A stretch of 45,377 nt of DNA from a virus: the IMG/VR virus record IMGVR_UViG_3300028394_000120, positions 1 through 45,377 of that record. The stretch is one strand, 5' to 3'. The notes beneath the pieces were generated by a model. It was not told the DNA's origin, did not search any database, and saw only the letters and a program-made list of their open reading frames with translations. Made by a program: the position numbers and the translations under genes. Shown here piece by piece: positions 18,458 to 35,558 of this stretch (position 1 is its first letter; each line of letters begins with the position of its first letter).

Positions 18458-18508
18458 CACACGAACCTACATGTAGGTTGTTCAAACTGGGTGTTTTTGG
18501 CGTTTGCC

Positions 18509-18516
18509 AATAAATA
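18509..18516 (+). promoter_or_regulatory. Late promoter box AATAAATA for gp18
   Basis: AATAAATA lies 25 nt before the gp18 ATG (18542), leaving a leader with the GAAAAGGAAA ribosome site. It is divergent from the minus-strand box at 18451-18457. Confidence 0.65.
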
Positions 18517-18541
18517 TCTACAACTTGAAAAGGAAACCATT

Positions 18542-21500
18542 ATGGCTTTAACATCACCAGGCGTAGAAGTAACAGTAATTGACGAGAGTCAATACGTACC
18601 CTCAGCCGTTAACACAGTACCCTACTTTGTGGTTGCCACAGCGCAAAACAAAGTATCCAGTGATGGAATCACTGTAGCAGCCGGTACTCTTGCCGCTAAT
18701 GCAAACAAAACATATTTGATCACCAGCCAGCGTGATTTAGCAGCCACCTTTGGTGTGCCATTCTTCTACAACACCACAACTGGTACTCCTATCAACGGAT
18801 ACGAACTCAACGAATACGGCTTGCTGGCCGCTTACTCTGCCTTGGGTGTGACAAACCGCGCTTATATCCAACGTGCTGATGTTGATTTGACAGCACTCAC
18901 AGCCAGTTTGACTCGTCCATTGGGCACCCCGGCCAACGGCACCTACTGGTTGGACACAGGCCTTTCTACTTGGGGCCTGTTTGAATGGAATGCCACCACA
19001 GAAACATTTGACCTACAAACTCCTACCATAATCACAGACACAACAGACACAGTGGGAGGCGACGGGTCAGACCCAATTGCTGATGCCACACCATTGGCAA
19101 CCATTGGCAGTATTGGTGACTATGCTGTGTCGGCAGTAGATGCATATGCTTTTGTTTATTACAAAAAATACGACAACACCTGGAATCAAGTTGGTAGCAA
19201 TGCCTGGAAAACTTCATGGCCCACAGTGGCAGGAACCAATGCAGTTACCACTACCTTGACTGTGGGTGCCAACATGATCATCAACGGCACCACAGTCACA
19301 GTTGGTGCAACCAACACTGTGGCAGGATTTGTTGCGGTTATTAATAGTGCCGCTATCACTGGCGTTACTGCTCGGGCAGTGAGCAATCAATTGTATCTGT
19401 ATGCTACCAGTGCCGCAGGTACAGACGGTTCCACATTGAACAGTGATGGCTTTATTGAAGTTGTGGCCGGCCCTAACTTGGGAACTGCGTTGCTGACTCA
19501 GTTGGGTATTACTGCAAGCCAGTATCCTGCTCCAGAATACTTCCCAGGTTACAGTTATGAACAACCCAAATGGATTTCAGGTGCTACTATTGATCCATTA
19601 AATGCAAGACCCACAGGTTCTGTGTGGCAAAACATGAGTAGTGCCAACAACGGATTGCAGTTGATAGTCAAGCAATACAGTGCCGCCCTTGGAACTTTTA
19701 TCACACAATCTTGCCCTGCCTATACCGGTGATATCACCGCAATTTATTCACTTGATCCCACAGGCGGCGGAAAGAACATTCCAGCAGGCACTACTTATGT
19801 GGCTTGGACTACTTTTGATTGGAGTACCATTATTCCTACCGCGGCATTCACAATTGAAGAACGTTATGCGGCAGGCGCCACAATAATAACTGGCACTACC
19901 GTACCTACAGGAGCGGCATTTACTGTAGGTAATAGTTTTGCTGTCAATGCCACGGTGCCTGGATCAACCACGCTATCTACCGCTACTGCTACCATTGGCG
20001 GAACCGGCACAGTAAGTGATTTCATCACTGCTGTATCGGCTATTGCAAATCCTTATGTTACAGCCAGTGTTAACTCAGCAGGTAACATTGTGTTTACTCA
20101 TTCAGCCGGCGGCACAATATTTTTAAGAAATGTATCCGGTACCCCAGTTACAATTGCTGGTTTTGCAGTAGGCGCTCCTGATCAAGTACAAAACCCAGTA
20201 AGTGGCACAGGACTCAAACTCAGTAACTTTGTTTCAACACCATTGTTTGAATACACAGCCAGTTCTACTGCGCCAGACTCATATCCAGCAGATGGTCGTT
20301 TGTGGTATTACAGTGCAGTTGATGCAGCTGATATCATGATTCAAGATGATGGCGCCTGGCAGGGTTACCAAAACGTTACCAATGATGTTCGTGGTTACGA
20401 TCTAACTGATTGTAATGCTACCGGACCCATCATCAGTGCCACAGCACCTACCACACAAACTGACACATCATTGAGTCCGTTGGTATACGGAGACTTGTGG
20501 ATTGACACATCCGATCTGGAAAACTATCCCAAACTGTATCGTTGGCAAGCAGTCAGCGGTGTTGAACAGTGGGTAGAAATTGACACCACAGATCAAACCA
20601 CACAAAATGGTATCCTGTTTGCAGATGCACGTTGGAGCACAAACGGCACCACAGACCCTTCAGCAGATGCATTGCCAAGCATCGTGAGTTTGTTGACCAG
20701 CGATTATCTAGATCCAGATGCACCTAACCCTGCACTGTATCCACAAGGTACCTTGTTGTTTAACACACGTCGTTCTGGTTATAATGTCAAGACTTGGCAA
20801 CAAGACTACTTTACAACCACAGCCACTGACTATGCAATTGATGCTTATTCAGCAACCACAGCCTATGCTGTGAATGACTTTGTGAGTTACAGCAATGGCA
20901 TCTACGTTTGTGCCGTGGCCACCTCAGCCGGCACAGCACCAAGCAATACTGCATACTGGAATCTGATAGATCTCAGCACATGGCTCACAGCAAGTGGCAA
21001 CAAATCCAATGGCAGCATGTGGTCAGGTCGCTTGGCACAGCGTCAAATTATTGTGGAGGCACTCAAGTCAGGTATTGACACCAGCGTGGCAGCACGTGAA
21101 GAACAGAACCAATACAATATCATTGCCACACCTGCTTATCCAGAGTTGACACCAAACATGATTGCACTCAGCAACGAACGCAACAACACTCTGTTTGTGG
21201 TTGGTGACACACCCATGCGCCTGGGCCCAGATGGCACAAGCCTGGTGGCGTTTGCTACCAACAACAATGGCCTGGGGCAACCCAATGGCGATGGCAACAT
21301 CTTGACCAGCAACTATTGCGGTGTGTTCTACCCCAGTTGTCAGACCACAGATCTTGGCGGAAACACAGTTGTTCAACCACCAAGCCACATGATGGTACGC
21401 ACAATCTTGCGCAGTGATGCCGCAAGTTATCCATGGTTGGCGCCAGCAGGCACACGTCGTGGTGTTGTGGACAATGCCTTGGCAATTGGTTATATTGAAG

Positions 21501-21970
21501 CCACCACAGGTGAGTTTACACAAATTGGCGTGAGTCAATCAGTACGTGACATCCTGTATGAGCGCAATATCAACCCAATCACGTTCATTCCCGGAATTGG
21601 TATCACCAACTTTGGTAACAAGACCACCACTGCCACAACCACAGCACTGGATCGTATCAACGTGGCACGCCTGGTGTGTTTCTTGCGTGGACGCCTGGAA
21701 GAGATTGGTAAACTGTACTTGTTTGAACCCAATGACACAATCACACGCAATCAAATCACCAACAGTGTTAATAGCCTGATGATTGACTTGGTTGCCAAGC
21801 GTGCCTTGTATGACTACCTGGTTGTTTGTGACTTGAGCAATAACACTCCTGCACGTATTGACCGCAATGAATTGTGGGTAGACGTTGCTATTGAGCCAGT
21901 GAAAGCAGTGGAATTCATCTACATTCCCCTGCGTATCAAGAACACTGGGGCAATTGCTGCCGGACAATAA
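18542..21970 (+). CDS. 18: Tail sheath protein gp18 (enlarged, 1142 aa)
   Basis: The contractile sheath subunit. The N-terminus (ALTSPGVEVTVIDESQYVP) and C-terminal third (RRGVVDNALAIGYIE, NINPITFIPGIGITNFG, DRINVARLVCFLRGRLEEIGK, IEPVKAVEFIYIPLRI) are typical of T4-type sheath. T4 gp18 is 659 aa, so about 480 residues are inserted. The insert holds two copies of a beta-rich unit at about 236-326 and 457-543, each with TVG, a V-x-x-F-x-x-x-(I)N/A strand and a conserved VxA near its end, resembling the flagellar hook IN motif. A CBM5/12-like segment lies at about 765-812 (SATTAYAVNDFVSYSNGIYVC-APSNTAYW). The ATG at 18542 has GAAAAGGAAACC upstream and follows a late box; a longer frame starts before that box and is rejected. 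Confidence 0.92.
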   Translation: MALTSPGVEVTVIDESQYVPSAVNTVPYFVVATAQNKVSSDGITVAAGTLAANANKTYLITSQRDLAATFGVPFFYNTTTGTPINGYELNEYGLLAAYSALGVTNRAYIQRADVDLTALTASLTRPLGTPANGTYWLDTGLSTWGLFEWNATTETFDLQTPTIITDTTDTVGGDGSDPIADATPLATIGSIGDYAVSAVDAYAFVYYKKYDNTWNQVGSNAWKTSWPTVAGTNAVTTTLTVGANMIINGTTVTVGATNTVAGFVAVINSAAITGVTARAVSNQLYLYATSAAGTDGSTLNSDGFIEVVAGPNLGTALLTQLGITASQYPAPEYFPGYSYEQPKWISGATIDPLNARPTGSVWQNMSSANNGLQLIVKQYSAALGTFITQSCPAYTGDITAIYSLDPTGGGKNIPAGTTYVAWTTFDWSTIIPTAAFTIEERYAAGATIITGTTVPTGAAFTVGNSFAVNATVPGSTTLSTATATIGGTGTVSDFITAVSAIANPYVTASVNSAGNIVFTHSAGGTIFLRNVSGTPVTIAGFAVGAPDQVQNPVSGTGLKLSNFVSTPLFEYTASSTAPDSYPADGRLWYYSAVDAADIMIQDDGAWQGYQNVTNDVRGYDLTDCNATGPIISATAPTTQTDTSLSPLVYGDLWIDTSDLENYPKLYRWQAVSGVEQWVEIDTTDQTTQNGILFADARWSTNGTTDPSADALPSIVSLLTSDYLDPDAPNPALYPQGTLLFNTRRSGYNVKTWQQDYFTTTATDYAIDAYSATTAYAVNDFVSYSNGIYVCAVATSAGTAPSNTAYWNLIDLSTWLTASGNKSNGSMWSGRLAQRQIIVEALKSGIDTSVAAREEQNQYNIIATPAYPELTPNMIALSNERNNTLFVVGDTPMRLGPDGTSLVAFATNNNGLGQPNGDGNILTSNYCGVFYPSCQTTDLGGNTVVQPPSHMMVRTILRSDAASYPWLAPAGTRRGVVDNALAIGYIEATTGEFTQIGVSQSVRDILYERNINPITFIPGIGITNFGNKTTTATTTALDRINVARLVCFLRGRLEEIGKLYLFEPNDTITRNQITNSVNSLMIDLVAKRALYDYLVVCDLSNNTPARIDRNELWVDVAIEPVKAVEFIYIPLRIKNTGAIAAGQ

Positions 21971-23841: not shown

Positions 23842-24204
23842 ATGGCCAGCATTAATTACACCAACTACAACATTGATCAAACAGTACGAGTGTTTGATGC
23901 ATTCTATGACTATGATGTGAACATTCCTGTGGGTGACTATGACATAGTCAACAGTTACTTCAAGAGTGTGATGACCACAAAACAAGCCGCAGATAACTTT
24001 ACTGCCAGTTTATTTAGAGTGGCACAAGACACTAATATTCCTCCATTGACCCTGTTGCAAACATTCCAGGCCAGCGGTGAGCAATTGGATCTCAACATCA
24101 ACATGGCCTACTATCTCAACAGTATCAGAAGCCGTGCTACCTTGTTGGGAGTGGGCATACCAGTAGCACCCAACTACTACGCGGCTAGAAACGTCAGACA
24201 ATAA
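23842..24204 (+). CDS. Conserved small virion-region protein (120 aa)
   Basis: I know the look of this protein from T4-like aquatic phages but not its function. It has an aromatic N-terminus (INYTNYNIDQTVRVFDAFYDYD), a TTKQAADNFTASLFRVAQDT helix, IPPLTLLQTFQAS and a C-terminal NMAYYLNSIRSRATLLGVG followed by PNYYAARNVRQ. It has no signal peptide or metal motif. It lies between tube and head-completion genes, with its stop overlapping the next ATG by one base, so a late structural or assembly role is likely. Confidence 0.7.
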   Translation: MASINYTNYNIDQTVRVFDAFYDYDVNIPVGDYDIVNSYFKSVMTTKQAADNFTASLFRVAQDTNIPPLTLLQTFQASGEQLDLNINMAYYLNSIRSRATLLGVGIPVAPNYYAARNVRQ

Positions 24205-24635
24205 TGGCACACTGGGCACAAGGCACATATACAGTAGTGAACCGTGCCAAGTATGTGGGCAACGGCGAGCCCCGCTACAGATCTGGTTGGGAATTTAGTT
24301 TCATGAAGTTCTGCGACTCAAATGATGCTGTACTACAGTGGGCCAGTGAATCAATTGCTATCCCTTATCGTCATCCCTTGACAGGCAAGATGACACAGTA
24401 TATCCCAGATTTTTTAATAACATATCGCACTAGAGGCAATCAAATGCGAGCCGAATTGATTGAAATCAAACCCAAAAAACAAAGCGTAATTGAGTCAAAA
24501 ATGAGTTCAAAAGAACGTGCTATAGTTGCCATCAACTATGCCAAATGGGACGCGGCGACCAAATGGGCCCGACGCAACGGACTCACATTCAGAGTCATAA
24601 CCGAACAAGACATGTTTCACAACGGTCGAGCGTGA
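24204..24635 (+). CDS. 4: gp4-like head completion nuclease
   Basis: A 143-residue homologue of T4 gp4 (150 aa), which finishes the DNA-filled head before tail joining and has a PD-(D/E)XK-like nuclease fold. Matching segments are the N-terminal basic RAKYVGN, RYRSGWEFSFMKFCDSNDAVLQWASESIAIPY (T4: TYRSNWEKFFFEWLDKNPEIIAWGSETAVIPY), QYIPDFLI, the catalytic-type LIEIKPKKQ (E-x-K) and the C-terminal KWDAATKWARRNGLTFRVITE (T4: KWKAAQSLAEKRGIKFRILTE). The ATG shares one base with the previous stop. It lies just upstream of the small terminase gene. Confidence 0.92.
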   Translation: MAHWAQGTYTVVNRAKYVGNGEPRYRSGWEFSFMKFCDSNDAVLQWASESIAIPYRHPLTGKMTQYIPDFLITYRTRGNQMRAELIEIKPKKQSVIESKMSSKERAIVAINYAKWDAATKWARRNGLTFRVITEQDMFHNGRA

Positions 24636-24651: not shown

Positions 24652-25158
24652 ATGACTCGTAAACTTGAAGACCTTTTTGATCTCCCACACACCGAGGAAG
24701 AAGTAGACCTTGCTCTGCCCACACTTCCTACCAATAGAGAAACACTACTAGCCCTGGACGAAGCCATTGACAAAGTAGACAATGCTTTGCCTGCTGTGCG
24801 TGGGCTTGAAGCAACAGATACCGAAATGGATGAACTTGCCGGCCTGGCAACAGGCAGTTACAAAGATCTCATGGATCTTGGTTTTCAAGTTGATTCACGC
24901 TTTGCCAGTGAAATCTTTTCAGTAGCATCAAACATGCTGGGTCATGCTATCACAGCCAAGACTGCCAAACTGGACAAGAAACTCAAAATGATTGATCTAC
25001 AGATGAAAAAAATGCGTCTAGATCAACAACAACAAGCCCTGGATGCCAAAGATCCTGAGGGCATGGCCGCCGCACAAACAGCACACGGCGTGGTTCTAAG
25101 CCGCAATGATCTGCTGGAACGTATTATTGGCAAAAGCCAAAACACGCAAAAAGAATAA
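24652..25158 (+). CDS. 16: Small terminase subunit (gp16-like)
   Basis: A 168-residue mostly helical protein. The pattern fits T4 gp16 (164 aa): an acidic N-terminus (DLFDLPHTEEEVDLALP), a first helix pair, then VDSRFASEIFSVASNMLGHAITAKTAKLDKKLKMIDLQMKKMRLDQQQQ (T4: [28 protein letters not shown]), which is the ring-forming coiled coil. The last part (VVLSRNDLLERIIGK) resembles the C-terminus that docks on the large subunit. It recognises concatemer DNA and regulates gp17. A late box ends 5 nt before the ATG with no ribosome site, so a leaderless message is predicted. Confidence 0.85.
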   Translation: MTRKLEDLFDLPHTEEEVDLALPTLPTNRETLLALDEAIDKVDNALPAVRGLEATDTEMDELAGLATGSYKDLMDLGFQVDSRFASEIFSVASNMLGHAITAKTAKLDKKLKMIDLQMKKMRLDQQQQALDAKDPEGMAAAQTAHGVVLSRNDLLERIIGKSQNTQKE

Positions 25159-25179: not shown

Positions 25180-25785
25180 ATGAAACCATTTGCCAAATAC
25201 CTAGCCGAAAGCGAACGTACATACAACTACCGCATCAAAGTGGTGGGTGATGTGCCCGATGGCTTTTTCAAAGAACTCCGAGATAAATGTGCTCAATTTG
25301 ACATTGTCAATATGTCAAATGCCAAGAGCACACCGGTTCGTCGAGTGATCCCTGATTTTCCAGCGTTTCCCAATCAGCCAATGAAGATTGTGGATGTGGA
25401 ATTCAAGTATCCAGCCATTGAGCCACAAATCAAACAACTGGCACAGATTCTTGGGCTGGATCCCAATCGCATTGTGATGATGTCCACTCCATATGAAGAA
25501 AGTCTCGACATTGAAAGTGAAAAGATTGCAGATCAAAATAAAGATTTGTTAGATTCACCATACCCTGCTCCTGATGCAGAACAACGAGCCTTGAGCAAAG
25601 ACTATGCAACTGGTCCGTACGATCACGAAGTCTTGAAAAATGCATATCGTAGTAATTTTACCGTGGCCGGGGGCAAGACACCTCCTGCCAAAACCACAAA
25701 TGAATTGCCAATGGGTAACAAGAGCCCCATGACCAATATCAAGCGTCAACCCCGCCCAGCCACTGGCGCAAACCCAAGAGGATAA
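25180..25785 (+). CDS. Candidate internal head protein with CTS-like N-terminus (201 aa)
   Basis: Residues 1-10, MKPFAKYLAE, closely resemble the 10-residue capsid-targeting sequence of T4 internal protein III (MKTYQEFIAE). They end in L-x-E, the cleavage pattern of T4 prohead protease gp21. The body (TYNYRIKVVGDVPDGFFKELRDKCAQFD to NRIVMMSTPYEE, about 13-105) looks like one compact alpha/beta domain and is the part I would expect to be conserved. The C-terminal 90 residues are Pro/Asn/Gly rich and probably disordered. The start has an AGGAT site and follows a late box. Packaging into the head and injection with DNA are inferred from the signal; no enzymatic motif is seen. Confidence 0.7.
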   Translation: MKPFAKYLAESERTYNYRIKVVGDVPDGFFKELRDKCAQFDIVNMSNAKSTPVRRVIPDFPAFPNQPMKIVDVEFKYPAIEPQIKQLAQILGLDPNRIVMMSTPYEESLDIESEKIADQNKDLLDSPYPAPDAEQRALSKDYATGPYDHEVLKNAYRSNFTVAGGKTPPAKTTNELPMGNKSPMTNIKRQPRPATGANPRG

Positions 25786-25789
25786 TACA

Positions 25790-28738
25790 ATGACATTTTT
25801 TTACAATCTCAACGACAAACTAAACGCAATTCGCGAGAAGCCAGAAACCACACACGGTCAGTTAAATGAACGTGACATGGGCAAGCACAACAACAAGACC
25901 ACTGGGTTTGATGCCTTGGCAAAAAAAGCCGGCAAAGAATACGGTAGCAAGGCCGCTGGTGAGCGTGTGGCGGGTGCTCAGTTCCAAAAGATGAAAAAAT
26001 CTGGCAAACTAGAAGAAGAAGGCATGAGCCGTGCGGCCAAAGGCTATGAGAAGTATGGCAAAGAAGGCATGCAGGCCCTGGCCAAGGCTGGACGTGAAGG
26101 CAAGGCACTGGATCCAGTTCGTGCCAAGTATGACAAGTATGATAAAGACCAAGTCAATGAACTCAGTACTGACCTATTAAAACGTGCAAGGGACAAGGCA
26201 GGTATGAAATATGCTGATGCTGACGATCGCCGAGATCAAAAAGCATCTGACAAATACAATAGACTAGATGACAAGTTCAATAGTGCCTTGCGTAAAAAAC
26301 AAAAAGACATGGACGAGGGCATGGGTGATGTGGCCAAGCGAGTTGGCAGTGCAGTCAAGAAAGTTGGCGGCGCTGTGATGAACCGCCTGGGCCATGGTGA
26401 CGATCAATCCATGCGCAAAGACTTGCAACGCAAGATGGGCATGCCACAAACTGGCAAGAAGCCACAAGAACTTGATGAACTAAGTTCTGAGTTGCTAAAC
26501 AGAACTAGAAATGCGGCAAACCGACGTAGTGTAAAATTTGATAATGAAGTTGACCGTATAAAAAGTAAATTGGTTAAACAAAGTGATGATCCTGAAATGG
26601 CATTGATTCCTGGGTACAATAAAGCAAGCCAACACTATGCAGATTTATCCAATAAAACCAGTGTCCATAAAGCCAATATGAACGATAAAATGCATGCTCA
26701 AAAGTTAGCATCACAGATGCCAGCAAAAATGAGAAATGCTGCCATGGCTGAAGAAGACGGTGCGCCAATGACACCTAAACAAAAGTCATTTGCTAAACTT
26801 GCACCTCCCAAAGACAAAATTACTTTTGCCGACAAGATTGCCGGCGCCAAGAAAGAAGTTGATGAGATGTTGGGTGACGTGGCTGCTGAAGCCATCAAAA
26901 GCGCACTTAGTCCCAAGCAAAAGAAAATTGACATGAACAAGAACGGCAAACTAGATGCCAACGACTTTGCTATGTTGCGCAAAGGCGGCAACAAGCAAGT
27001 GGCTGACGAAGGCTTTCCGACTGTGGACAGCGCCCGTGATGAAATGCGCAAACGCAAAGTTGGCGATGTCACACACGGTGACAAGCATGACACACAAGAA
27101 GTTCCTGGCGGCCGCAGAGTAACACGCAGAGTTGATCCCAACACAGGTTATTCAGTAGGTGCTGATAGTGATGAGCCAGCCGCAGGTGAAAAGCGCGGAC
27201 GCGGTCGTCCAAAAGGTGCTGACAAAGGCCCTGAGCGTGTGACCAGCAAGGCTACCAAACACAAAGGCGGTCGCAAAACCAACGAAGCCGATCTTGGAAA
27301 CGTCGCTGGTTACTACAAAGAAACTCAGGATGTAAAGAAACTTACAAACTGGTTAGAAAAAAACGCCGGTTTGCCAAGAAATTCTCCACTTTATTTTGAC
27401 GACGTTGACCTTGTATACGGCGACAAAACTATTGTTCCCGGTGCCTTGGTCAATCCCAAATTAACATTCAATGATTTGTTAACTGCTGTTGTGCAAGCCT
27501 TAAAACAAGACATGGCGGAAGGTGATCTTGATATCATAGATCGTGGTGAGTATGATCAAGAAGGCGACATGGCCAAAGACAGTATTAAAACTGTGGTGCG
27601 TCATGCACAAGCCCTGGAAAAGATCCTGGGCGACAATGACAACCTGCCAGAATGGGTACAATCCAAGTTGGCCAAGATCGAAAGCATGATGACTGCTGTG
27701 GACGACTACATGCAGAACCAAGAGGACGACGAAATGGCCATGGGCGAAGAAAAAACTTCTACCCGTGACAACCGTGCTGAACGTGCAGGCCGCAAGGTTG
27801 CCAAAGACATTGAGTATGATGAGAAAAAGAAAGATGGCATTCACGGCAAGAAGCGTGGATCCGAAGATACCAAAGCAGAAAAAGCCGGCAAGAAAGTCAC
27901 CAAAGACATTGAATACGACGAGAAGAAAAAGAAAGTCAAAGAGCAAGGCGGAACTGACACTCCCACAGCATCAAGTGGCTTCGGGTTTGGACAAGGCATT
28001 TATGACTCCATGAATCGTGAACTAGAAAGCATGATCTCTGAAAGCATGAATATCAGCATGAGCATGAACACTGACGCCACAGGCGGCCCAAGTCGGAGCG
28101 TGACTGTGACTGCCACTGATGACGATGCCATGAAACTGGGCGAGTTGTTGAAAAATGCCGGCCTAGGCGGCGATCATGACATGGGCGGCCAAGCACCTGG
28201 CGCCGAAATAGAAGTACACGGTGCAGAAGGCATTGCTGATCAAATACGTCAAGCAGTTGATGATGATCATGGCCACGACGACGAAGTGTGCGATGCATGT
28301 GGTCAAGAAGACTGCGGCTGCGAAACAGTTGACGAAGCCTATGGCGATGACGTTGTAAGCCAAAATTCACCTGATTATCCTACCAACACTGAAACTGCAC
28401 AAGATAGTTTTGAATATTCGGGTGGATTAAACGGTCCTAAATCAACTGGACAAACAACTATTCCTGTGATTGCCAGCCAGGACGAGCGTCAACACACATA
28501 CGAAGATGATCAAGAACTTCATAGAATGATGGAAATGGCCGGTGTCAAGAAAAAAGAAGTTGACGAAGAAAAAACTGAAGAAGGCAACTTGTTTACAAAA
28601 GGCCTTGCAGATAATGACGTCAAAGTTGGAGAAAAAATTCCAGGCACAAATGCTGTCAAGAAAAAAGATATTGACGAAGGCATTCTTGCTTCCACTGCTA
28701 ATCTTTGGAAACAATACAAAGGACAATACGGAGTATAA
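25790..28738 (+). CDS. Large charged candidate internal/scaffold protein (982 aa)
   Basis: A very hydrophilic Lys/Asp/Glu/Gly-rich protein, probably multi-domain with disordered linkers. Visible parts: YEKYGKEGMQALAKAGREGK at about 85-104; twin (V/L)-x-ELS-x-x-LL-x-R-x-R motifs at about 121 and 228; a canonical EF-hand loop D381-x-N-x-N-G-x-L-x-x-N-D392; an AT-hook KRGRGRPKG at 468-476; an LPEWVQSKLAKIESMM helix near 620; a duplicated block AGxKVxKDIEYDEKKK at about 663-682 and 696-715; and a Cys cluster C834-x2-C837-x4-C842-x-C844. Many L/I/V-x-E sites could be cut by a prohead protease. A role in the head interior, as core/scaffold or ejected DNA-binding protein, is inference. The start has GAGGATAATACA upstream. 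Confidence 0.7.
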   Translation: MTFFYNLNDKLNAIREKPETTHGQLNERDMGKHNNKTTGFDALAKKAGKEYGSKAAGERVAGAQFQKMKKSGKLEEEGMSRAAKGYEKYGKEGMQALAKAGREGKALDPVRAKYDKYDKDQVNELSTDLLKRARDKAGMKYADADDRRDQKASDKYNRLDDKFNSALRKKQKDMDEGMGDVAKRVGSAVKKVGGAVMNRLGHGDDQSMRKDLQRKMGMPQTGKKPQELDELSSELLNRTRNAANRRSVKFDNEVDRIKSKLVKQSDDPEMALIPGYNKASQHYADLSNKTSVHKANMNDKMHAQKLASQMPAKMRNAAMAEEDGAPMTPKQKSFAKLAPPKDKITFADKIAGAKKEVDEMLGDVAAEAIKSALSPKQKKIDMNKNGKLDANDFAMLRKGGNKQVADEGFPTVDSARDEMRKRKVGDVTHGDKHDTQEVPGGRRVTRRVDPNTGYSVGADSDEPAAGEKRGRGRPKGADKGPERVTSKATKHKGGRKTNEADLGNVAGYYKETQDVKKLTNWLEKNAGLPRNSPLYFDDVDLVYGDKTIVPGALVNPKLTFNDLLTAVVQALKQDMAEGDLDIIDRGEYDQEGDMAKDSIKTVVRHAQALEKILGDNDNLPEWVQSKLAKIESMMTAVDDYMQNQEDDEMAMGEEKTSTRDNRAERAGRKVAKDIEYDEKKKDGIHGKKRGSEDTKAEKAGKKVTKDIEYDEKKKKVKEQGGTDTPTASSGFGFGQGIYDSMNRELESMISESMNISMSMNTDATGGPSRSVTVTATDDDAMKLGELLKNAGLGGDHDMGGQAPGAEIEVHGAEGIADQIRQAVDDDHGHDDEVCDACGQEDCGCETVDEAYGDDVVSQNSPDYPTNTETAQDSFEYSGGLNGPKSTGQTTIPVIASQDERQHTYEDDQELHRMMEMAGVKKKEVDEEKTEEGNLFTKGLADNDVKVGEKIPGTNAVKKKDIDEGILASTANLWKQYKGQYGV

Positions 28739-28739
28739 T

Positions 28740-28910
28740 ATGACCACACAACCTTTTACCACAGCATTGACAACACCCCCTGTTATCAATCCACATAGTC
28801 CTGCCACTGGCGGTTACAAACAACAACCAGTGTACATTCCCGGTGTGTTGGATCAAACACGCAACTTGTTTCAACCAGTTGTGAGTGAACCACCCAAGGA
28901 CACAAAATAA
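28740..28910 (+). CDS. Small hypothetical protein (56 aa)
   Basis: A 56-codon gene with GGAG 9 nt before its ATG, starting 1 nt after the preceding stop. The product is Pro/Thr-rich and probably extended (TTPPVINPHSP, QQPVYIPGVLDQTRNLFQP). There is no helix-rich, membrane or metal motif. Its stop overlaps the next ATG by one base, so it is part of the same late unit. Function is unknown. Confidence 0.6.
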   Translation: MTTQPFTTALTTPPVINPHSPATGGYKQQPVYIPGVLDQTRNLFQPVVSEPPKDTK

Positions 28911-29239
28911 TGCCTGCTGTTCAAGTTGTCAACGCTGTATCCAACGTGGCTTGGACTACAGACAAGGTAGAAATTGCTACCACGTTGGCCAACGTTACAT
29001 TCCAAGTTAGTTTGACACAAACTCAATACATACAGGCCAATGGTGTGCCGGTGAACACCACCATGCCCACAGGCAACTTGTATGCCAATGCCATTGTGGT
29101 ACCAGGTAATACCGTGCAACAGTACTATATCGGAGCCGGCAACTACCTTAACATTGTTACAGGCAATGCATTCACAGCCACAGCACTAGGTACTGCCACA
29201 TCCGGCACAAGTGGTGTGTACGGCTCAACTTCGAGTTAA
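28910..29239 (+). CDS. Conserved beta-rich virion-region protein (109 aa)
   Basis: A 109-residue protein low in charge and rich in Val/Thr/Asn: VQVVNAVSNVAWTTDKVEIATTLANVTFQV, then VPGNTVQQYYIGAGNYLNIVTG and a Gly/Ser/Thr tail. The pattern suggests a small all-beta fold such as a capsid decoration or fibre-associated protein; this is inference. It is coupled to the 56-aa gene upstream and followed within 2 nt by the first CTS-like gene. Confidence 0.65.
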   Translation: MPAVQVVNAVSNVAWTTDKVEIATTLANVTFQVSLTQTQYIQANGVPVNTTMPTGNLYANAIVVPGNTVQQYYIGAGNYLNIVTGNAFTATALGTATSGTSGVYGSTSS

Positions 29240-29241
29240 TC

Positions 29242-29610
29242 GTGCGAGCACAAGAGTTTGTTACTGAAATGCGTCAGGGAAAATTAAGCACCCGTAATCA
29301 AAGTGCCACGGTGGGCCTTAATTTGTTTAGTGACAGTGAAAAAGCCAACAGTGACTATACTCTCAATCGTGTGATGATGGCCGTGGCCATGGCCGACGGA
29401 TCTAATAAACCAATCAAGATGGATGGCAAGAGTTGGGTAGGAAAAAAACGCACAGCAAGCCCTTATACTGAAGTTGAGCAACGAATGCTCATACAAGCAT
29501 ACAAGGCAGCTGGGGCAGATTATGAAGATCTAAATCACGGCGATTTTGACAGTGAAGAACATCCTGCGGTAAACACCACTAGTCCCATTGAAGCATTTAA
29601 AGGCTACTGA
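29242..29610 (+). CDS. Candidate internal head protein with CTS-like N-terminus (122 aa, GTG start)
   Basis: The GTG start gives MRAQEFVTE, a 9-residue leader like the T4 internal-protein capsid-targeting sequence (MKTYQEFIAE). It ends in a V-x-E variant of the prohead protease site. The rest is a small alpha-helical domain with basic patches (NRVMMAVAMADGSNKPIKMDGKSWVGKKRT, YTEVEQRMLIQAYKAAGADYEDL). The C-terminus PAVNTTSPIEAFKGY is almost the same as that of the next protein although the middles differ. No ribosome site is obvious; translation may be coupled to the gene ending 2 nt upstream. Confidence 0.65.
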   Translation: MRAQEFVTEMRQGKLSTRNQSATVGLNLFSDSEKANSDYTLNRVMMAVAMADGSNKPIKMDGKSWVGKKRTASPYTEVEQRMLIQAYKAAGADYEDLNHGDFDSEEHPAVNTTSPIEAFKGY

Positions 29611-29990
29611 TGAGAGCACGAGAATTTATCACTGAAGAAGCAACATTGCCTCCTGAACTGGCAGATCCCATGAATCATGTGTTTGTGTTACCAGGGGTGC
29701 AGTCCAGTGACCCTTATCAAATATATCGTCTGGGTGTGGCCATGGCTCGAGCCAGAAGTGATGCCGGCACACAAGATCCCATACCCAACATGCCTGCTTG
29801 GTCAGCACAAGCCGCATTTGGCGAAGATGCTGTGATTGCTGGATTCAATGCCTCAGTAGAGCCAGTTATTGATCAAGCATTGAAAATGGCCGGCCTGCCT
29901 GTTAAAAAGGTACAGATAAGTACCCCCAACAGTTTAGAACCAGCCTCGGTCAATCACACCAGCCCAGTAAAACCCTTCAACGGTTACTAA
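29610..29990 (+). CDS. Candidate internal head protein with CTS-like N-terminus (126 aa)
   Basis: MRAREFITE at residues 1-9 matches the T4 capsid-targeting sequence pattern and ends in a perfect I-x-E cleavage site. The middle is a compact helical domain (DPYQIYRLGVAMARARSD, WSAQAAFGEDAVIAGFNAS, VIDQALKMAGLPVKKVQIS). The C-terminus ASVNHTSPVKPFNGY pairs with that of the previous protein. The start codon overlaps the previous stop (TGATG). The two genes look like cargo modules with common ends and unrelated bodies. Confidence 0.65.
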   Translation: MRAREFITEEATLPPELADPMNHVFVLPGVQSSDPYQIYRLGVAMARARSDAGTQDPIPNMPAWSAQAAFGEDAVIAGFNASVEPVIDQALKMAGLPVKKVQISTPNSLEPASVNHTSPVKPFNGY

Positions 29991-30022: not shown

Positions 30023-30841
30023 ATGAAAAAAATATTAACCGTGGTCTTGCTACTCACAGCAGGACTAGCACAAGCCTGGGATCAACGTGCTCCTAATCCT
30101 GTACAGGCATGTCAAGTACACTCACCTTATGGATTTGCCATAGTCAATCGTCCGGTACAAGCAATTTGCCGTGAAGCGTATCTTGTGGCATATGATGCAC
30201 CTGTTAAGATTCCTGCTTATGTGGCATATACACTACTACCACAAAACGCACTAGGATGCTTTCCGCGCACTAATGCATTTGTAGCAGACCAAAGCCTAGG
30301 TGGCACAGGTGCCAGACCAGATGACTATGCAGGCACAGGCTACGACAAAGGACATGCCGCTCCTGACGGTGACTTGAGTTGGTCAGCACAAGTGGAATAT
30401 GAAAGTTTCTTGATGACCAACATGTATCCGCAACACGGATCATTAAATCGTGGTATTTGGAAACTGTTGGAAACAGCAGTTCGCGGATGGACGGTGCAAC
30501 TAAACCAACCTTTCACAATTTATGTAGGTGCATTGTATGGTGCCGGTGACCCCACAATTGGCAACGGTGTTATTGTACCACATGGCTTCTACAAGATTGT
30601 TATCAACAACACAACCAAGCAGGCCGCAGGTTGGGTATTCCCACATACCAAGCCCTATGTTAACCTGGGCAACGACTTGACTGTGTTCCGCCGGCCCATT
30701 GCAGAAATAGAAAAAGTAGCAGGGGTTGACTATAAGTTTCCCCCAGGTGTTACGGAAGTACAACCTGGCAAAGAATGGCCAGTGGATTTTGGTGCATTGA
30801 CCAATGCCAAACGTGCCCGGTGTGGTCGCAATGCGGAATAA
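30023..30841 (+). CDS. Exported DNA/RNA non-specific endonuclease (NucA/Serratia type)
   Basis: A 272-residue protein with a clear Sec signal peptide (MKK, hydrophobic core, ALAQA-like cleavage end near residue 19). The nuclease motif is YDKGHAAPDGD, with general-base H111; the usual DRGH reads DKGH here. The metal-binding part MTNMYPQHGSLNRGIWKLLE (N133, N142, E150) fits the family very well. Four Cys (in QACQ, AICRE, LGCFPR, RARCGRN) could form disulfides after export. The enzyme cuts DNA and RNA without sequence preference. An exported nuclease among head genes is unusual; possible roles are digestion of DNA in the periplasm or outside the cell, or nucleotide scavenging. It has its own late box and AAAGG site. 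Confidence 0.9.
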   Translation: MKKILTVVLLLTAGLAQAWDQRAPNPVQACQVHSPYGFAIVNRPVQAICREAYLVAYDAPVKIPAYVAYTLLPQNALGCFPRTNAFVADQSLGGTGARPDDYAGTGYDKGHAAPDGDLSWSAQVEYESFLMTNMYPQHGSLNRGIWKLLETAVRGWTVQLNQPFTIYVGALYGAGDPTIGNGVIVPHGFYKIVINNTTKQAAGWVFPHTKPYVNLGNDLTVFRRPIAEIEKVAGVDYKFPPGVTEVQPGKEWPVDFGALTNAKRARCGRNAE

Positions 30842-30943: not shown

Positions 30944-32083
30944 ATGAGCAATTTCTACTGTGCGGCACCCTGGCGTGGCCTGCACATCAATCCCCAAGGC
31001 AATGTCAAAACCTGTTGCGCAGGCAATCCCAACATGTTGGGTAACCTCAATGCCAACACCATTGAAGAAATCTTAAACACTGATTTAATGGCAGAAATAC
31101 GTGCCAGCCTAGCACAAGGTCAGCCGCATGAGTATTGCAGTAATTGTGTAAAAGCCGAACGCTTTGGCGCAGACTCGGAACGTGCCTGGCACAACCGTGT
31201 GAATCCCAACTTTGATTATGCCCTAGCAGGTGACCGATATCACTATCCTGTGATATTTGATGTGCGTTGGAACACAACCTGTAACTTGAGTTGTAACTAC
31301 TGTGGGCCCGGTTGTTCTAGTAAATGGGCTAGTATAAAAAACGTGCCATTCCGATCAGGCACAAGACCCTACTATGAACAAGTGTGTGACTTTCTTGAGC
31401 AACATCATGAACACATACACGAAGTGGCCTTGGTCGGAGGCGAACCATTATTATTGCCCGAAAACGAACGCTTGCTAGATGTCATTCCTGAAAGTGCCAT
31501 AGTAACACTGATCACAAATATGAATGTTGATCTGGAAAAAAATAAAATATTTAAAAAACTTACCCAGAGACGTAATGTAGGCTGGTCCATGAGTTTTGAC
31601 AACACGGGTGATAGACTAGAATATGTACGTCACGGTGCTGACTGGAAGTTGTTGCAACACAATATACAAACAGTTAAATATCTCATGAAGAACAATGGCC
31701 ATTGGGGCGGCATACACGCTGTATACAATATTTACAGTGCCACACGACTTTGTGAGTTTAGGCAGTTTGCCCAAGATACTGGCACCACAGTGCTGTGGCA
31801 AAATTTATTCCAACCAGATTATCTTGATCCGTTCCAACATGGACCCGAAGTGGCTGAGTTGGCCAGCCGGGAAATCGATCGATTCTATGAGATGGACATT
31901 GCTACCCCAGCAGAGCGACAGTTCTTTGATCAAGCAAGAGACAAGTACAGTCAATCAGAGCCCAATCCTGAGATACAACAAAACTTTCGTAAACATATTC
32001 ATGACAACGAAACTGTGTTCCATCCAGACAAATCGGGAGATTTTGTACGACTATGGCCAGAATTGGAATTCCTATGCAAATAA
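30944..32083 (+). CDS. Twitch-domain radical SAM protein 1 (379 aa)
   Basis: A radical SAM enzyme with an N-terminal twitch (half-SPASM) cluster domain: C6 in YCAAPWRGLHINPQGNV, C24/C25 and C65-x2-C68 (YCSNC) could bind an auxiliary Fe-S cluster. The radical SAM triad is C113-x3-C117-x2-C120 (CNLSCNYC), followed by the SAM-binding GGEP at about 165-168 and an SFDN segment on a later strand. Such enzymes make a 5'-deoxyadenosyl radical and often modify peptides. The substrate is unknown. No ribosome site is seen; a late box ends 4 nt before the ATG. The next gene is a homologue, so the pair arose by duplication or acts together. Confidence 0.88.
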   Translation: MSNFYCAAPWRGLHINPQGNVKTCCAGNPNMLGNLNANTIEEILNTDLMAEIRASLAQGQPHEYCSNCVKAERFGADSERAWHNRVNPNFDYALAGDRYHYPVIFDVRWNTTCNLSCNYCGPGCSSKWASIKNVPFRSGTRPYYEQVCDFLEQHHEHIHEVALVGGEPLLLPENERLLDVIPESAIVTLITNMNVDLEKNKIFKKLTQRRNVGWSMSFDNTGDRLEYVRHGADWKLLQHNIQTVKYLMKNNGHWGGIHAVYNIYSATRLCEFRQFAQDTGTTVLWQNLFQPDYLDPFQHGPEVAELASREIDRFYEMDIATPAERQFFDQARDKYSQSEPNPEIQQNFRKHIHDNETVFHPDKSGDFVRLWPELEFLCK

Positions 32084-33231
32084 CTGACAGCCCTACATTT
32101 TGCTCAGCGCCTTGGACCAGTTTGAACATTGATCAATCCGGGCATGTTAGTCCTTGTTTCCATTGTGTAGAGATGGTGGGAAACAACAAAAAAGACACAA
32201 TACAAAACATCATTCGAGGCCCTATATTAACAAGCATGAGAGAAACCATGGCTCGTGGTGAATGGCACCCAGGATGCAGTTGGTGCAAAAGTCTTGAAGA
32301 AACAACAGGTTCAAGTGGCAGGACGGTGCGCCATGCTGACCAAAGTACACTAACAGAGATTGACAAAGATTTAGATTTTTTTGAATTACAACATCTTGTG
32401 GTCAACTGGAGTAATTTGTGTAACTTATCTTGTGTGTATTGTAATCCTGAAACCAGCACAGCCTGGCAAAGCGTCAAGAAAATACCTATCAATCATGTTA
32501 AAAATGAGCATGAGGACTTGATTGCACTTGCAAAAACACAAGGCCATAACATACACGGACTCAGTCTAGGTGGCGGAGAACCACTATTGCAAAAAGGCCT
32601 GGCTGATTTTTTAGATCACCTTGATCCCAACAAAGTCAATGTCATGGTCACAACCAATCTCAGTGTGAACATTGTCACAAACCCTATATACCAAAAACTC
32701 AAGACTTGGCCACGTGTGGAGTGGATGGTGAGTTTTGACAATGTTGAGGCTGACAAGTTTGAATATGTTCGCAACGGAGCACAATGGACAACACTAACTG
32801 CCAACCTTGACACTATGAATCAAGATTCACAAACAATCAAAGCACACCCGGCCTACAGCATATACAATGCATTTGATTTGATTTCATATTATGAATTCTG
32901 TACAGCCCGATCTTTAGAAATTTACTGGTGCGAACTCATGCATCCTTATGATCTAGATGCAAGACGACTGCCTGAACAACTGCGATTGCAGGCAATGTCT
33001 CAAATTGATCAAGTGACAGAACGCTGGGGCCACCACATTAATTTAGGAATACACACGCTACAAAACTATCGCAAGCAGTTACAGGATAACACTTATGTCA
33101 AAGATATCAACAAGTATAAACCTGAGGTGTTGAAGTTTCATCAAAAAATAGAAACTGAACTAAACAAAACAACGCATTTTGTTGACCTATGGTCAGAACT
33201 TGCAGAAGGAATCAAACATGGATTCGTTTAA
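32074..33231 (+). CDS. Twitch-domain radical SAM protein 2 (385 aa)
   Basis: Homologue of the preceding gene, overlapping its end by 10 bp. N-terminal twitch Cys residues are C10 (FCSAPWTSLNIDQSGHV), C28-x2-C31 (CFHC) and a later GCSWC. The radical SAM triad is C116-x3-C120-x2-C123 (CNLSCVYC), with GGGEP at about 167-171 and VSFDNVEADKFEYVRNGAQW matching SFDNTGDRLEYVRHGADW of the first copy. Similarity is clear along the whole length but divergent, so the duplication is old. An ATG at 32053 is also in frame; 32074 keeps the twitch Cys at the usual distance from the N-terminus. Confidence 0.87.
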   Translation: MQITDSPTFCSAPWTSLNIDQSGHVSPCFHCVEMVGNNKKDTIQNIIRGPILTSMRETMARGEWHPGCSWCKSLEETTGSSGRTVRHADQSTLTEIDKDLDFFELQHLVVNWSNLCNLSCVYCNPETSTAWQSVKKIPINHVKNEHEDLIALAKTQGHNIHGLSLGGGEPLLQKGLADFLDHLDPNKVNVMVTTNLSVNIVTNPIYQKLKTWPRVEWMVSFDNVEADKFEYVRNGAQWTTLTANLDTMNQDSQTIKAHPAYSIYNAFDLISYYEFCTARSLEIYWCELMHPYDLDARRLPEQLRLQAMSQIDQVTERWGHHINLGIHTLQNYRKQLQDNTYVKDINKYKPEVLKFHQKIETELNKTTHFVDLWSELAEGIKHGFV

Positions 33232-33994
33232 AGATTCACTGCCATTGGCACCACCGTGGCACCCGGGGATATCATGTGCCGGACGAACACTAGATTGGCT
33301 GCCAACAGACACTAAAGAAAGTTACGAGCGCATGATACAAGATCCTGCACACCGTGAATATTTTCAGGCCAAAGGTTGGGACAAGCCCAATGCAATCACA
33401 TACAAGATAAACAAGTATGGATTCAGATGCCAAGAATTTGAGTTTGGAGTCAAGTCGGTGGTTGCACTGGGCTGTAGTTACACAGTGGGCATTGGACTGC
33501 CACTTGACACAATCTGGCCGACCATATTGGGCAATGAACTCAACATGACATCATACAACTTGGCCTGGGGCGGTACCAGCGCAGACACTTGTTTTATGTT
33601 GGCAAAGTTCTGGTTGCCAGTGTTACGCCCGGAGTTGGTTGTCATGGCCGCTCCACCTAAAAACAGATTTGATATTATTAGAGCAACAGGCAAACCTGAA
33701 ATGCATACAATGATGCCCAATACCACTGACGGTGAGTTCGGTGCTGATGTGATTCTCAAGCACTGGATGACAAATGAAGGTAATCAAGACTTAAATAACG
33801 CAAAGAACAAATTGGCAGTTCAGGCTCTTTGTCAAAATTTAGGAATACCCTGTTTGACCTACGACGCACACGATTATTTTGCTCGCAGTCGAGAAGAAGT
33901 AGAGTATGCCAGAGATTACATGCATGCTGGCCCACAAGGACACAAAATGTTTGCAGAAAGAATATTGGATGATTGGCGCAAAAAATACGCTTGA
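33218..33994 (+). CDS. SGNH/GDSL-type hydrolase
   Basis: A 258-residue SGNH-like hydrolase. The nucleophile block is VVALGCSYTVGIGL with S87, the second block is AWGGTSADT, and the catalytic Asp-His block is DYMHAGPQGH (D233, H236). SGNH enzymes remove or transfer acyl groups on sugars, lipids or peptides. The N-terminal 80 residues (PPWHPGISCAGRTLDWLP, YKINKYGFRCQEFEF) form the lead-in common in phage SGNH proteins. The ATG at 33218 has AGAAGGAATCAA upstream and overlaps the radical SAM 2 gene by 14 bp, so the three proteins are coupled. A shared pathway, such as modification of a peptide or a surface glycan, is inference. Confidence 0.8.
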   Translation: MDSFKDSLPLAPPWHPGISCAGRTLDWLPTDTKESYERMIQDPAHREYFQAKGWDKPNAITYKINKYGFRCQEFEFGVKSVVALGCSYTVGIGLPLDTIWPTILGNELNMTSYNLAWGGTSADTCFMLAKFWLPVLRPELVVMAAPPKNRFDIIRATGKPEMHTMMPNTTDGEFGADVILKHWMTNEGNQDLNNAKNKLAVQALCQNLGIPCLTYDAHDYFARSREEVEYARDYMHAGPQGHKMFAERILDDWRKKYA

Positions 33995-35558
33995 TACTGT
34001 ACTGGTCAAAGCACCACATCGTCGAGAAACATTCACTGAATCAGAACTTGAAGACTTTGCTCGGTGCGCAGATCCTGTGACCGGCCCTATGTACTTCATG
34101 GACAACTTTTTTCATATTCAACATCCTGTTCGTGGCAAAATGTTGTATCATGCTTTTGAATATCAACAGAGACTGATTGCAAACTATCACAACAATCGTT
34201 TCTCAATTTCGCTGATGCCTCGACAAACCGGTAAGTCAACGTCAGCCGCAGGTTACCTGTTATGGTATGCTATGTTTATACCTGATGCTACTATTCTTAT
34301 TGCCGCACACAAATATCTGGGCGCACAAGAGATCATGCAACGTATTCGCTATGCCTATGAACTATGCCCTAATCATATTAGAGCAGGTGCCACCAGTTAC
34401 AACAAAGGCTCGTTAGAGTTTGACAACGGATCACGTATTGTAAGTCAAACAACAACTGAAAATACCGGTCGTGGTATGAGTATTACCTTGCTGTATCTAG
34501 ACGAGTTTGCGTTTGTGAGACCCACAATTGCCAAAGAGTTCTGGACATCTATCACACCCACACTGAGCACAGGTGGTAAAGCAATTATCACTAGCACGCC
34601 CAACTCAGACGAAGATCAGTTTGCCTACATCTGGAAGGGTGCCAACAAGACAGAAGATGAGTTTGGCAACCCACGAGCCGATGGCCTGGGCATCAACGGC
34701 TTTCGGGCATTTCGTGCCTTTTGGCGTGAGCACCCAGACCGTGACGATGCCTGGGCCGCAGAACAGCGTAGCCAACTAGGCGACGAACGTTTCCGTCGAG
34801 AGATGGACTGTGACTTTGTTATCAACGACGAAACATTGATCGCTCCTATCAAGTTATTGGAACTGGAAGGTCAAGAACCCACACACAAGACTGGACAAGT
34901 ACGCTGGTATCGCCCCATTGACCAGGACAAGATGTACATTGTGGCACTTGATCCTAGCCTGGGTACAGGTGGCGATCCTTCGGCCATACAAGTATTTGAA
35001 GCAGAAACCACTGAACAAGTGGCCGAATGGCGCCACAACCGAACGGATGTGCCCACACAGATCCGAATCCTAGCAGACATCATCAAAGAAATACACTCAG
35101 TGGTCAAGGATGAAAAGAAAATCTACTACTCAGTGGAAAACAATACCTTGGGTGAAGCAGCCTTGATCTCCATTGCAGAATACGGAGAAGAAAATATCCC
35201 GGGCTATTTCCTCAGCGACAATTCAGTACAAAGTTCAAACGGACGCAGAATCCGCAAGGGATTTACCACTACCAACAAGAGCAAGATTGTGGCCTGCAAC
35301 AAGTTCAAAATTCTAATAGAATCTGGGCGTATGAAGATCTACTCAAAACCCCTGATAACTGAACTAAAAACATTTGTGGCTGCCGGTTCCAGTTACGCGG
35401 CCAAGATCGGAGAAACAGATGATCTTGTGATGGCAGGCCTGCTTGTGACCCGTATGCTGATGTTGTTACAATCTTATCATGCAGACCTTAATTCCTACCT
35501 AAAAGACCACACTGATAACATAATCGAACCTTTTCCCTTCATTGCTTTGATGCGATGA
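33969..35558 (+). CDS. 17: Large terminase subunit gp17
   Basis: The DNA-packaging motor, 529 residues (T4 gp17 is 610). ATPase domain: Walker A MPRQTGKS (residues 83-90), Walker B LLYLDEFAF with D178/E179, and the coupling motif ITSTPN. The nuclease domain has the first catalytic Asp at D328 (ALDPSLGTGGDPSAI), then an acidic YYSVENNTLG and a final GETDDLVMAGLL. Phages of this type package from concatemers by the headful mechanism (family knowledge). An in-frame ATG at 33906 would extend it 21 residues into the SGNH gene; 33969 is preferred but not proven. It overlaps the SGNH gene by 26 bp. Unlike T4, it is separated from gp16 by about 9 kb of accessory genes. Confidence 0.93.
   Translation: MIGAKNTLDTVLVKAPHRRETFTESELEDFARCADPVTGPMYFMDNFFHIQHPVRGKMLYHAFEYQQRLIANYHNNRFSISLMPRQTGKSTSAAGYLLWYAMFIPDATILIAAHKYLGAQEIMQRIRYAYELCPNHIRAGATSYNKGSLEFDNGSRIVSQTTTENTGRGMSITLLYLDEFAFVRPTIAKEFWTSITPTLSTGGKAIITSTPNSDEDQFAYIWKGANKTEDEFGNPRADGLGINGFRAFRAFWREHPDRDDAWAAEQRSQLGDERFRREMDCDFVINDETLIAPIKLLELEGQEPTHKTGQVRWYRPIDQDKMYIVALDPSLGTGGDPSAIQVFEAETTEQVAEWRHNRTDVPTQIRILADIIKEIHSVVKDEKKIYYSVENNTLGEAALISIAEYGEENIPGYFLSDNSVQSSNGRRIRKGFTTTNKSKIVACNKFKILIESGRMKIYSKPLITELKTFVAAGSSYAAKIGETDDLVMAGLLVTRMLMLLQSYHADLNSYLKDHTDNIIEPFPFIALMR

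Follow-up and report, generated by a model that had tools for sequence, protein, structure and literature searches.

The window analyzed here, that is, the whole stretch of 45,377 bases from an IMG/VR virus record, comes from a T4-like jumbo phage. It encodes a T4-type sheath, two tube proteins, a gp4-like head-closure protein, and UvsX/UvsY; being a fragment of 45 kb, it contains neither protease nor capsid genes. Many close relatives are present in IMG/VR, with contigs of 320 to 350 kb among them. Table 1 lists the features of the locus that carries the three leader genes. Elsewhere in the window, the sheath ORF (18491-21970) is listed with an upstream GTG start, but relatives begin with MALTSPGVEV, and the internal ATG that opens this sequence is the probable start here too.

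TABLE 1 Features of the leader-gene locus
Feature	Position	Strand	Match or remark
gp4-like head-closure protein	24204..24635	+	phrog_218, E 2.9e-40
Gene directly upstream of leader A	24652..25158	+	phrog_16202; slot of T4-like small terminase (gp16)
201-aa protein: leader, ferredoxin-like domain (ca. residues 13-125), disordered tail	25180..25785	+	
Leader A, MKPFAKYLAE	25180..25209	+	Predicted capsid-targeting propeptide; predicted cut after E10
982-aa low-complexity mosaic protein between leader genes	25790..28738	+	
122-aa protein, 29610 paralogue	29242..29610	+	Conserved C-terminus TSPxxxFKGY
Leader B, MRAQEFVTE (GTG start)	29242..29268	+	Predicted short capsid-targeting propeptide
126-aa protein, 29242 paralogue	29610..29990	+	Mostly helical low-confidence model
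Leader C, MRAREFITE	29610..29636	+	Predicted short capsid-targeting propeptide
Large terminase (gp17-like), locus end	33906..35558	+	phrog_36964, E 7.6e-115

By its position only, we infer that the gene preceding leader A is small terminase (gp16)-like; in cyanophages S-CREM2 and S-SRM01, the terminase small subunit gene occupies the equivalent place. The large terminase has 52% identity to those of Pseudomonas jumbo phages, PA5oct included. The mosaic protein consists of repeated modules with an EF-hand/dockerin-like stretch (LSPKQKKIDMNKNGKLDANDF), and one of its modules (residues 584 to 644) is common to a cyanophage protein beginning MKTFKQLREE. The same module lies within a separate leader-bearing gene in one relative (G003) and in cyanophage S-WAM2. 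Downstream of the leader genes and upstream of the terminase is a gene for a DNA/RNA nonspecific endonuclease (30023-30841; Endonuclease_NS, E 1.8e-38), whose product seems to start with a signal peptide; relative G001 has this gene too. It is followed by two neighboring radical-SAM proteins and an SGNH-hydrolase-like ORF starting at 33179 (30944-33231 in all). This last ORF overlaps the listed terminase start, which suggests that the true start of the terminase is further downstream.

Sequence and conservation of the three leaders

The first-pass annotation had placed N-termini resembling a T4 capsid-targeting sequence at 25180, 29242, and 29610, and all three were found there. Read across the predicted cut (slash), they are MKPFAKYLAE/SERTY, MRAQEFVTE/MRQGK, and MRAREFITE/EATLP, with ATG, GTG, and ATG as the respective start codons; GTG is used by 16 of the 112 orthologues of 29242. 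In the T4 leader, residues 4 and 7 are the main determinants of targeting and residues 8 and 10 those of processing (PMC9026906). Leader A aligned without gaps to the T4 IPIII sequence MKTYQEFIAE and agreed with it at all four mutationally defined positions (F4, Y7, L8, and E10), so that here the proposed resemblance stood in full. For the two MRA leaders (B and C), it stood in part. These are 9-mers (MRA-x-E-F-[VI]-T-E), one residue shorter than the T4 leader and without an aromatic at position 4, but they retain the aromatic, the hydrophobic residue, and the Glu before the cut. Thus, both T4-type aromatics (positions 4 and 7) are present in 25180, and F6 alone represents them in the MRA leaders, while the processing signature ([LI]8 and E10 with a free P2) is found in 25180 and, as I/V/L7 plus E9, in the MRA families. 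The AlphaFold2 model of leader A is helical over residues 4 to 11.

The residues kept within each family delineate the putative cleavage site. Among 101 orthologues of 25180, L8 and E10 were invariant, Y7 was found in 101 and F4 in 96, and residue 9 was free. In the 29242 family (112 orthologues), E5 and E9 were invariant, F6 was found in 100, residue 7 was I, V, or L, and residue 8 was free. The 29610 family (100 orthologues) kept R2, A3, E5, F6, and E9 in all members, with I, L, or V at residue 7 and again a free residue 8. Therefore, the L/I-x-E (or V-x-E) cut pattern that had been read from three single sequences proved to hold across 100 to 112 orthologues per family, with P1 Glu and P3 Leu/Ile/Val without exception, a nearly constant aromatic at P4, and no constraint at P2. 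In the unfiltered list, two more diverged relatives of 25180 had A or D at P1.

Nonsynonymous change in the leaders was suppressed (pN/pS ratio of 0.13 to 0.17), and synonymous codons varied at each leader position, which indicates conservation at the level of the peptide rather than of the DNA. This bears on the possibility that the common start plays no part in targeting and was distributed by recombination between the 5' ends of genes. The tandem arrangement of leader genes, with gaps of 10 bases or less in 101 of 120 cases, would favor such an exchange, but the wide synonymous variation, the low pN/pS ratio, and the coexistence of invariant and free positions make it very unlikely. A count of start-codon coupling among leader genes was dropped because the pattern itself forces ATGA. 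As a separate observation, synonymous differences were far rarer in leader A (25180-25209) than in the body of the gene (pS of 0.24 versus 0.62), hinting at an extra RNA-level constraint at the 25180 start.

The leader system is a variant of the T4 capsid-targeting system; the latter is itself known, and the variant is new. Like the leaders of T4 IPI, IPII, and IPIII (Mullaney and Black; PMC9026906, PMC12373910), leader A has 10 residues, aromatics at 4 and 7, and an [LI]-x-E end. In both cases, the leader is common to nonhomologous proteins, and a gp21-type protease is found in the relatives of the window. Differences are the 9-residue MRA variant with its fixed A3 and E5, the unrelated and nonbasic bodies, the presence of large multidomain enzymes among the carriers in relatives, and the hosts of the system, which are uncultured jumbo phages. 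The ejection-protein propeptides of the giant phages phiKZ and SPN3US (PMC5694885) are also protease-trimmed N-termini that are probably head targeting, but most are longer than 100 residues, while the leaders described here have 9 or 10 and a site at residue 9 or 10. Within the open-licence literature, we found the T4 leader and the long phiKZ-type propeptides but no account of such a leader from jumbo or environmental phages, and an absence of this kind is weak evidence.

Leader-type N-termini and the putative capsid cleavage site in related phages

The first-pass annotation had also proposed a motif search in related genomes. We ran its expression, M[KR]x(1,5)[FY][LIV]xE, on the N-termini of two near-complete relatives (346,856 and 341,990 bp) and obtained 6 matches out of 404 and 5 out of 403, versus an expectation of 0.2 based on shuffled residues or on internal positions. 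As a calibration, a near-identical expression applied to T4 retrieved IPII, IPIII, and gp61.1 only (0.17 expected). On a broader scale, a scan of IMG/VR with the DNA pattern for MRAxEF[LIV]xE gave at least 120 viral stretches, while an order-scrambled control (E and F swapped) was found in 8 stretches of the whole collection, which is about the chance estimate. The motif is short and was picked after the sequence had been read, so a chance likeness of ordinary N-termini had to be considered; the independent genomes, the shuffled null, and the scrambled control refute it, and we give it practically no credence.

Among the matches listed, 330 distinct leader proteins fell into approximately 31 body clusters (single-linkage BLAST leaving out the first nine residues, hence the approximate number). 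Close leaders are also found in cultured T4-like cyanophages, namely, MKSFNQFLSE (DSL-LC02), MKTLKQFLKE (S-SM2), and MQTFSMFFSE (S-CREM2). Those of DSL-LC02 and S-CREM2 are located near the small terminase gene, a placement that mirrors the window. A genome-wide search of cyanophage S-WAM2 found no aromatic leader, yet single cyanophages match well.

The gp23-like major capsid protein of relatives contains the same kind of site, RKYLKE/NASAG, at what we take to be the position of the T4 gp23 cut. One genome encodes a leader protein of 66 residues, MRAQEFIKE/NASVGATSSGSVAT, that copies the capsid junction KYLKE/NASAGSTAAGNIAT and was clearly the best of 404 proteins in this respect; in a second genome, an analogous small protein also ranked first, by a small margin only. 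A prohead protease of the S77 (gp21) type was detected in 9 of 10 long relatives; of 20 records selected by their leaders, 7 contained one. When records of at least 128 kb were considered, 16 of 18 had it, and most of the protease-negative records were short fragments. One long record (L183 in G004; 342,865 bases) has the 29242 family, and neither the gp23-like capsid protein nor the S77 protease was detected in it.

Protein bodies and virion data

Sequence searches with the three proteins against Pfam, PHROGs, and the PDB gave nothing significant, and homologues of 29242 and 29610 were absent from 50,697 phage records. The AlphaFold2 model of 25180 had a pLDDT of ca. 85 over its domain. Foldseek returned weak ferredoxin-like matches only (ribosomal S6 and ACT), too weak for us to accept this resemblance as an indication of function. 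The 29610 model was poor (pLDDT, 69; pTM, 0.40). The 29242 and 29610 families are related to each other (hhalign, 99.1%; E 7e-19) and have invariant C-terminal residues.

Virion data are available through phage PA5oct (GenBank accession number MK797984), where EST35_0202 is a homologue of 25180 (25% identity over 186 residues) annotated as a structural protein on the basis of ESI-MS/MS. This is the sole link to a virion, and it concerns 25180 only. The gene order is that of the window, with the homologue between the head-completion gene and the terminase, and the next gene, EST35_0203, is also tagged as a structural protein by ESI-MS/MS. 25180 is a probable virion protein, syntenic with its PA5oct homologue, and the head-gene locus around it is conserved. 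The N-termini of the homologues in PA5oct (MKSFRDYYDAS) and Phosso (MKNFYEYLSS) keep the aromatics at 4 and 7 but lack the P1 Glu and, in PA5oct, the [LI]-x-E site, so cleavage is not universal; in T4 terms, aromatics without Glu would predict packaging without trimming. Across the PA5oct proteome, the generic pattern M[KR].{3,7}[LIV].E matched 5 of 93 proteins detected by MS and 6 of 199 undetected ones, the latter defined by our own gene calling (P = 0.25, not significant), which indicates that the system cannot be generalized to every relative. The aromatic form of the leader is absent from PA5oct.

The retention of an aromatic helix without Glu in PA5oct and Phosso could also mean that the peptide addresses proteins to the tail, a membrane, or another phage-made compartment, with [LIV]-x-E as part of a binding helix and not a cleavage site. 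Lysozyme-type carriers of the leader could be tail proteins as well. This explanation does not account easily for a free P2 between invariant P3 and P1 residues, for the same site at the cleavage position of the capsid protein together with its copied junction, or for the close match to the T4 sequence, and we consider it improbable.

Taken together, the unrelated carriers, the constancy of the cleavage positions around a variable P2, the capsid site, the S77 protease in relatives, and the PA5oct homologue in virions strongly support, at the sequence level, the earlier prediction that the three proteins would be targeted to the head and trimmed by the prohead protease. We are therefore fairly confident that the three N-termini are T4-type capsid-targeting propeptides acting as a portable address, for docking in the head, trimming, and possibly exit with the DNA. 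By analogy with T4, during head assembly the short N-terminal helix would dock the protein to the prohead core, and the gp21-type S77 protease would cut after the Glu of [LIV]-x-E. The mature protein would then be freed inside the head and may leave with the DNA. Docking to the core, cleavage, packaging of 29242 and 29610, and ejection are steps that we infer; that environmental jumbo phages related to this one have the leader fused to unrelated bodies, by the dozen, is directly apparent in their genomes.

What the three proteins do is a different matter. The first-pass annotation had seen in them candidate host-takeover or anti-defense proteins, hidden among hypothetical genes, and here the data offered no support. 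The omega values (0.105 for 25180, 0.104 for 29242, and ca. 0.1 in all three families) indicate strong purifying selection, which argues against an arms-race role. The trimmed proteins are neutral to acidic (pI of 7.7, 6.1, and 4.9, versus 9.7 for T4 IPIII), that is, none is a small basic protein like T4 IPI to IPIII. This combination fits conserved internal head components, which is what the three look like, better than fast-evolving anti-defense proteins. It is thus possible, with a probability that we put only a little short of even, that the leader targets the proteins and is cleaved but that they then remain part of the particle, with an assembly-core or structural role such as that of T4 gp67 and gp68, and are neither injected nor used against the host. 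The omega values, the synteny and conservation of 25180 as far as PA5oct and Phosso, the structural neighbors in PA5oct, and the paralogous 29242/29610 pair with its invariant C-termini all agree with this. On the other hand, T4 internal proteins with the same type of leader are injected (PMC12373910), and the other carriers are enzymes for which an assembly role is not obvious. IP1 to IP3 of T4, found through the same kind of leader, inhibit type IV restriction enzymes (PMC12373910). By this analogy, injection of the three window proteins is plausible.

Enzymes carrying the leader in relatives

Among the matches listed, the carriers recognized by Pfam domains included an ADP-ribosyltransferase (E 9.5e-13), acetyltransferases of the GNAT type (2.9e-8 and 6.1e-7), a tail-lysozyme/LysM protein (2.1e-13), and a GH19 enzyme (4e-14), with ParB-like and polyvalent-kinase matches near the cutoff. 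T4 Alt, the classic head-packaged and injected enzyme, is an ADP-ribosyltransferase. These other carriers look like host-modifying enzymes, and the host-takeover prediction suits them (ADP-ribosyltransferase, acetyltransferases, kinase-like proteins, and lysozymes) better than it does the three window proteins. In the part of Iyer et al. 2017 considered here (PMC5512222), polyvalent proteins, for which injection has been proposed, typically contain GNAT, ParB-like, kinase, and lysozyme domains, and that part does not mention a T4-type leader. Some carriers in relatives are similar in combining ParB-like, GNAT, kinase-like, ART, or lysozyme domains. The window proteins, unlike the polyvalent proteins as presented there, are small single bodies without a Pfam domain in any of them.

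We lean slightly toward a wider reading, in which M[KR]xxx(x)[FY][LIV]xE would serve T4-like environmental jumbo phages as a general code for loading an arsenal into the head, with unrelated cargo encoded in tandem, packed, trimmed, and injected. If so, the injected effectors of uncultured phages (ADP-ribosyltransferases, acetyltransferases, kinases, peptidases, and lysozymes) could be listed from sequence alone, while the proteins carried into the cell normally become known only when the virions of a cultured phage are analyzed by proteomics. With a leader that is legible in the sequence, the discovery of cargo turns into a search, and the leader already flags enzymes among the hypothetical genes of uncultured jumbo phages. 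The leaders are also candidates for tagging foreign proteins that are to be loaded into large heads.

Two further arrangements were observed in relatives. A second syntenic cluster of leader-type genes adjoins a Dps-like gene (L235 and L236, G001 55341-66122; L255, G003 78184-89164) and contains GNAT/ParB-like proteins, a Cys-rich GFSQKAHC module, and a small NASVGAT protein. In two other cases (L348, 3861-4493, minus strand; L300, 2992, plus strand), the leader is followed directly by a twin-arginine-like signal, resulting in two stacked N-terminal addresses, and in L348, a GH19 chitinase/lysozyme domain lies behind both.
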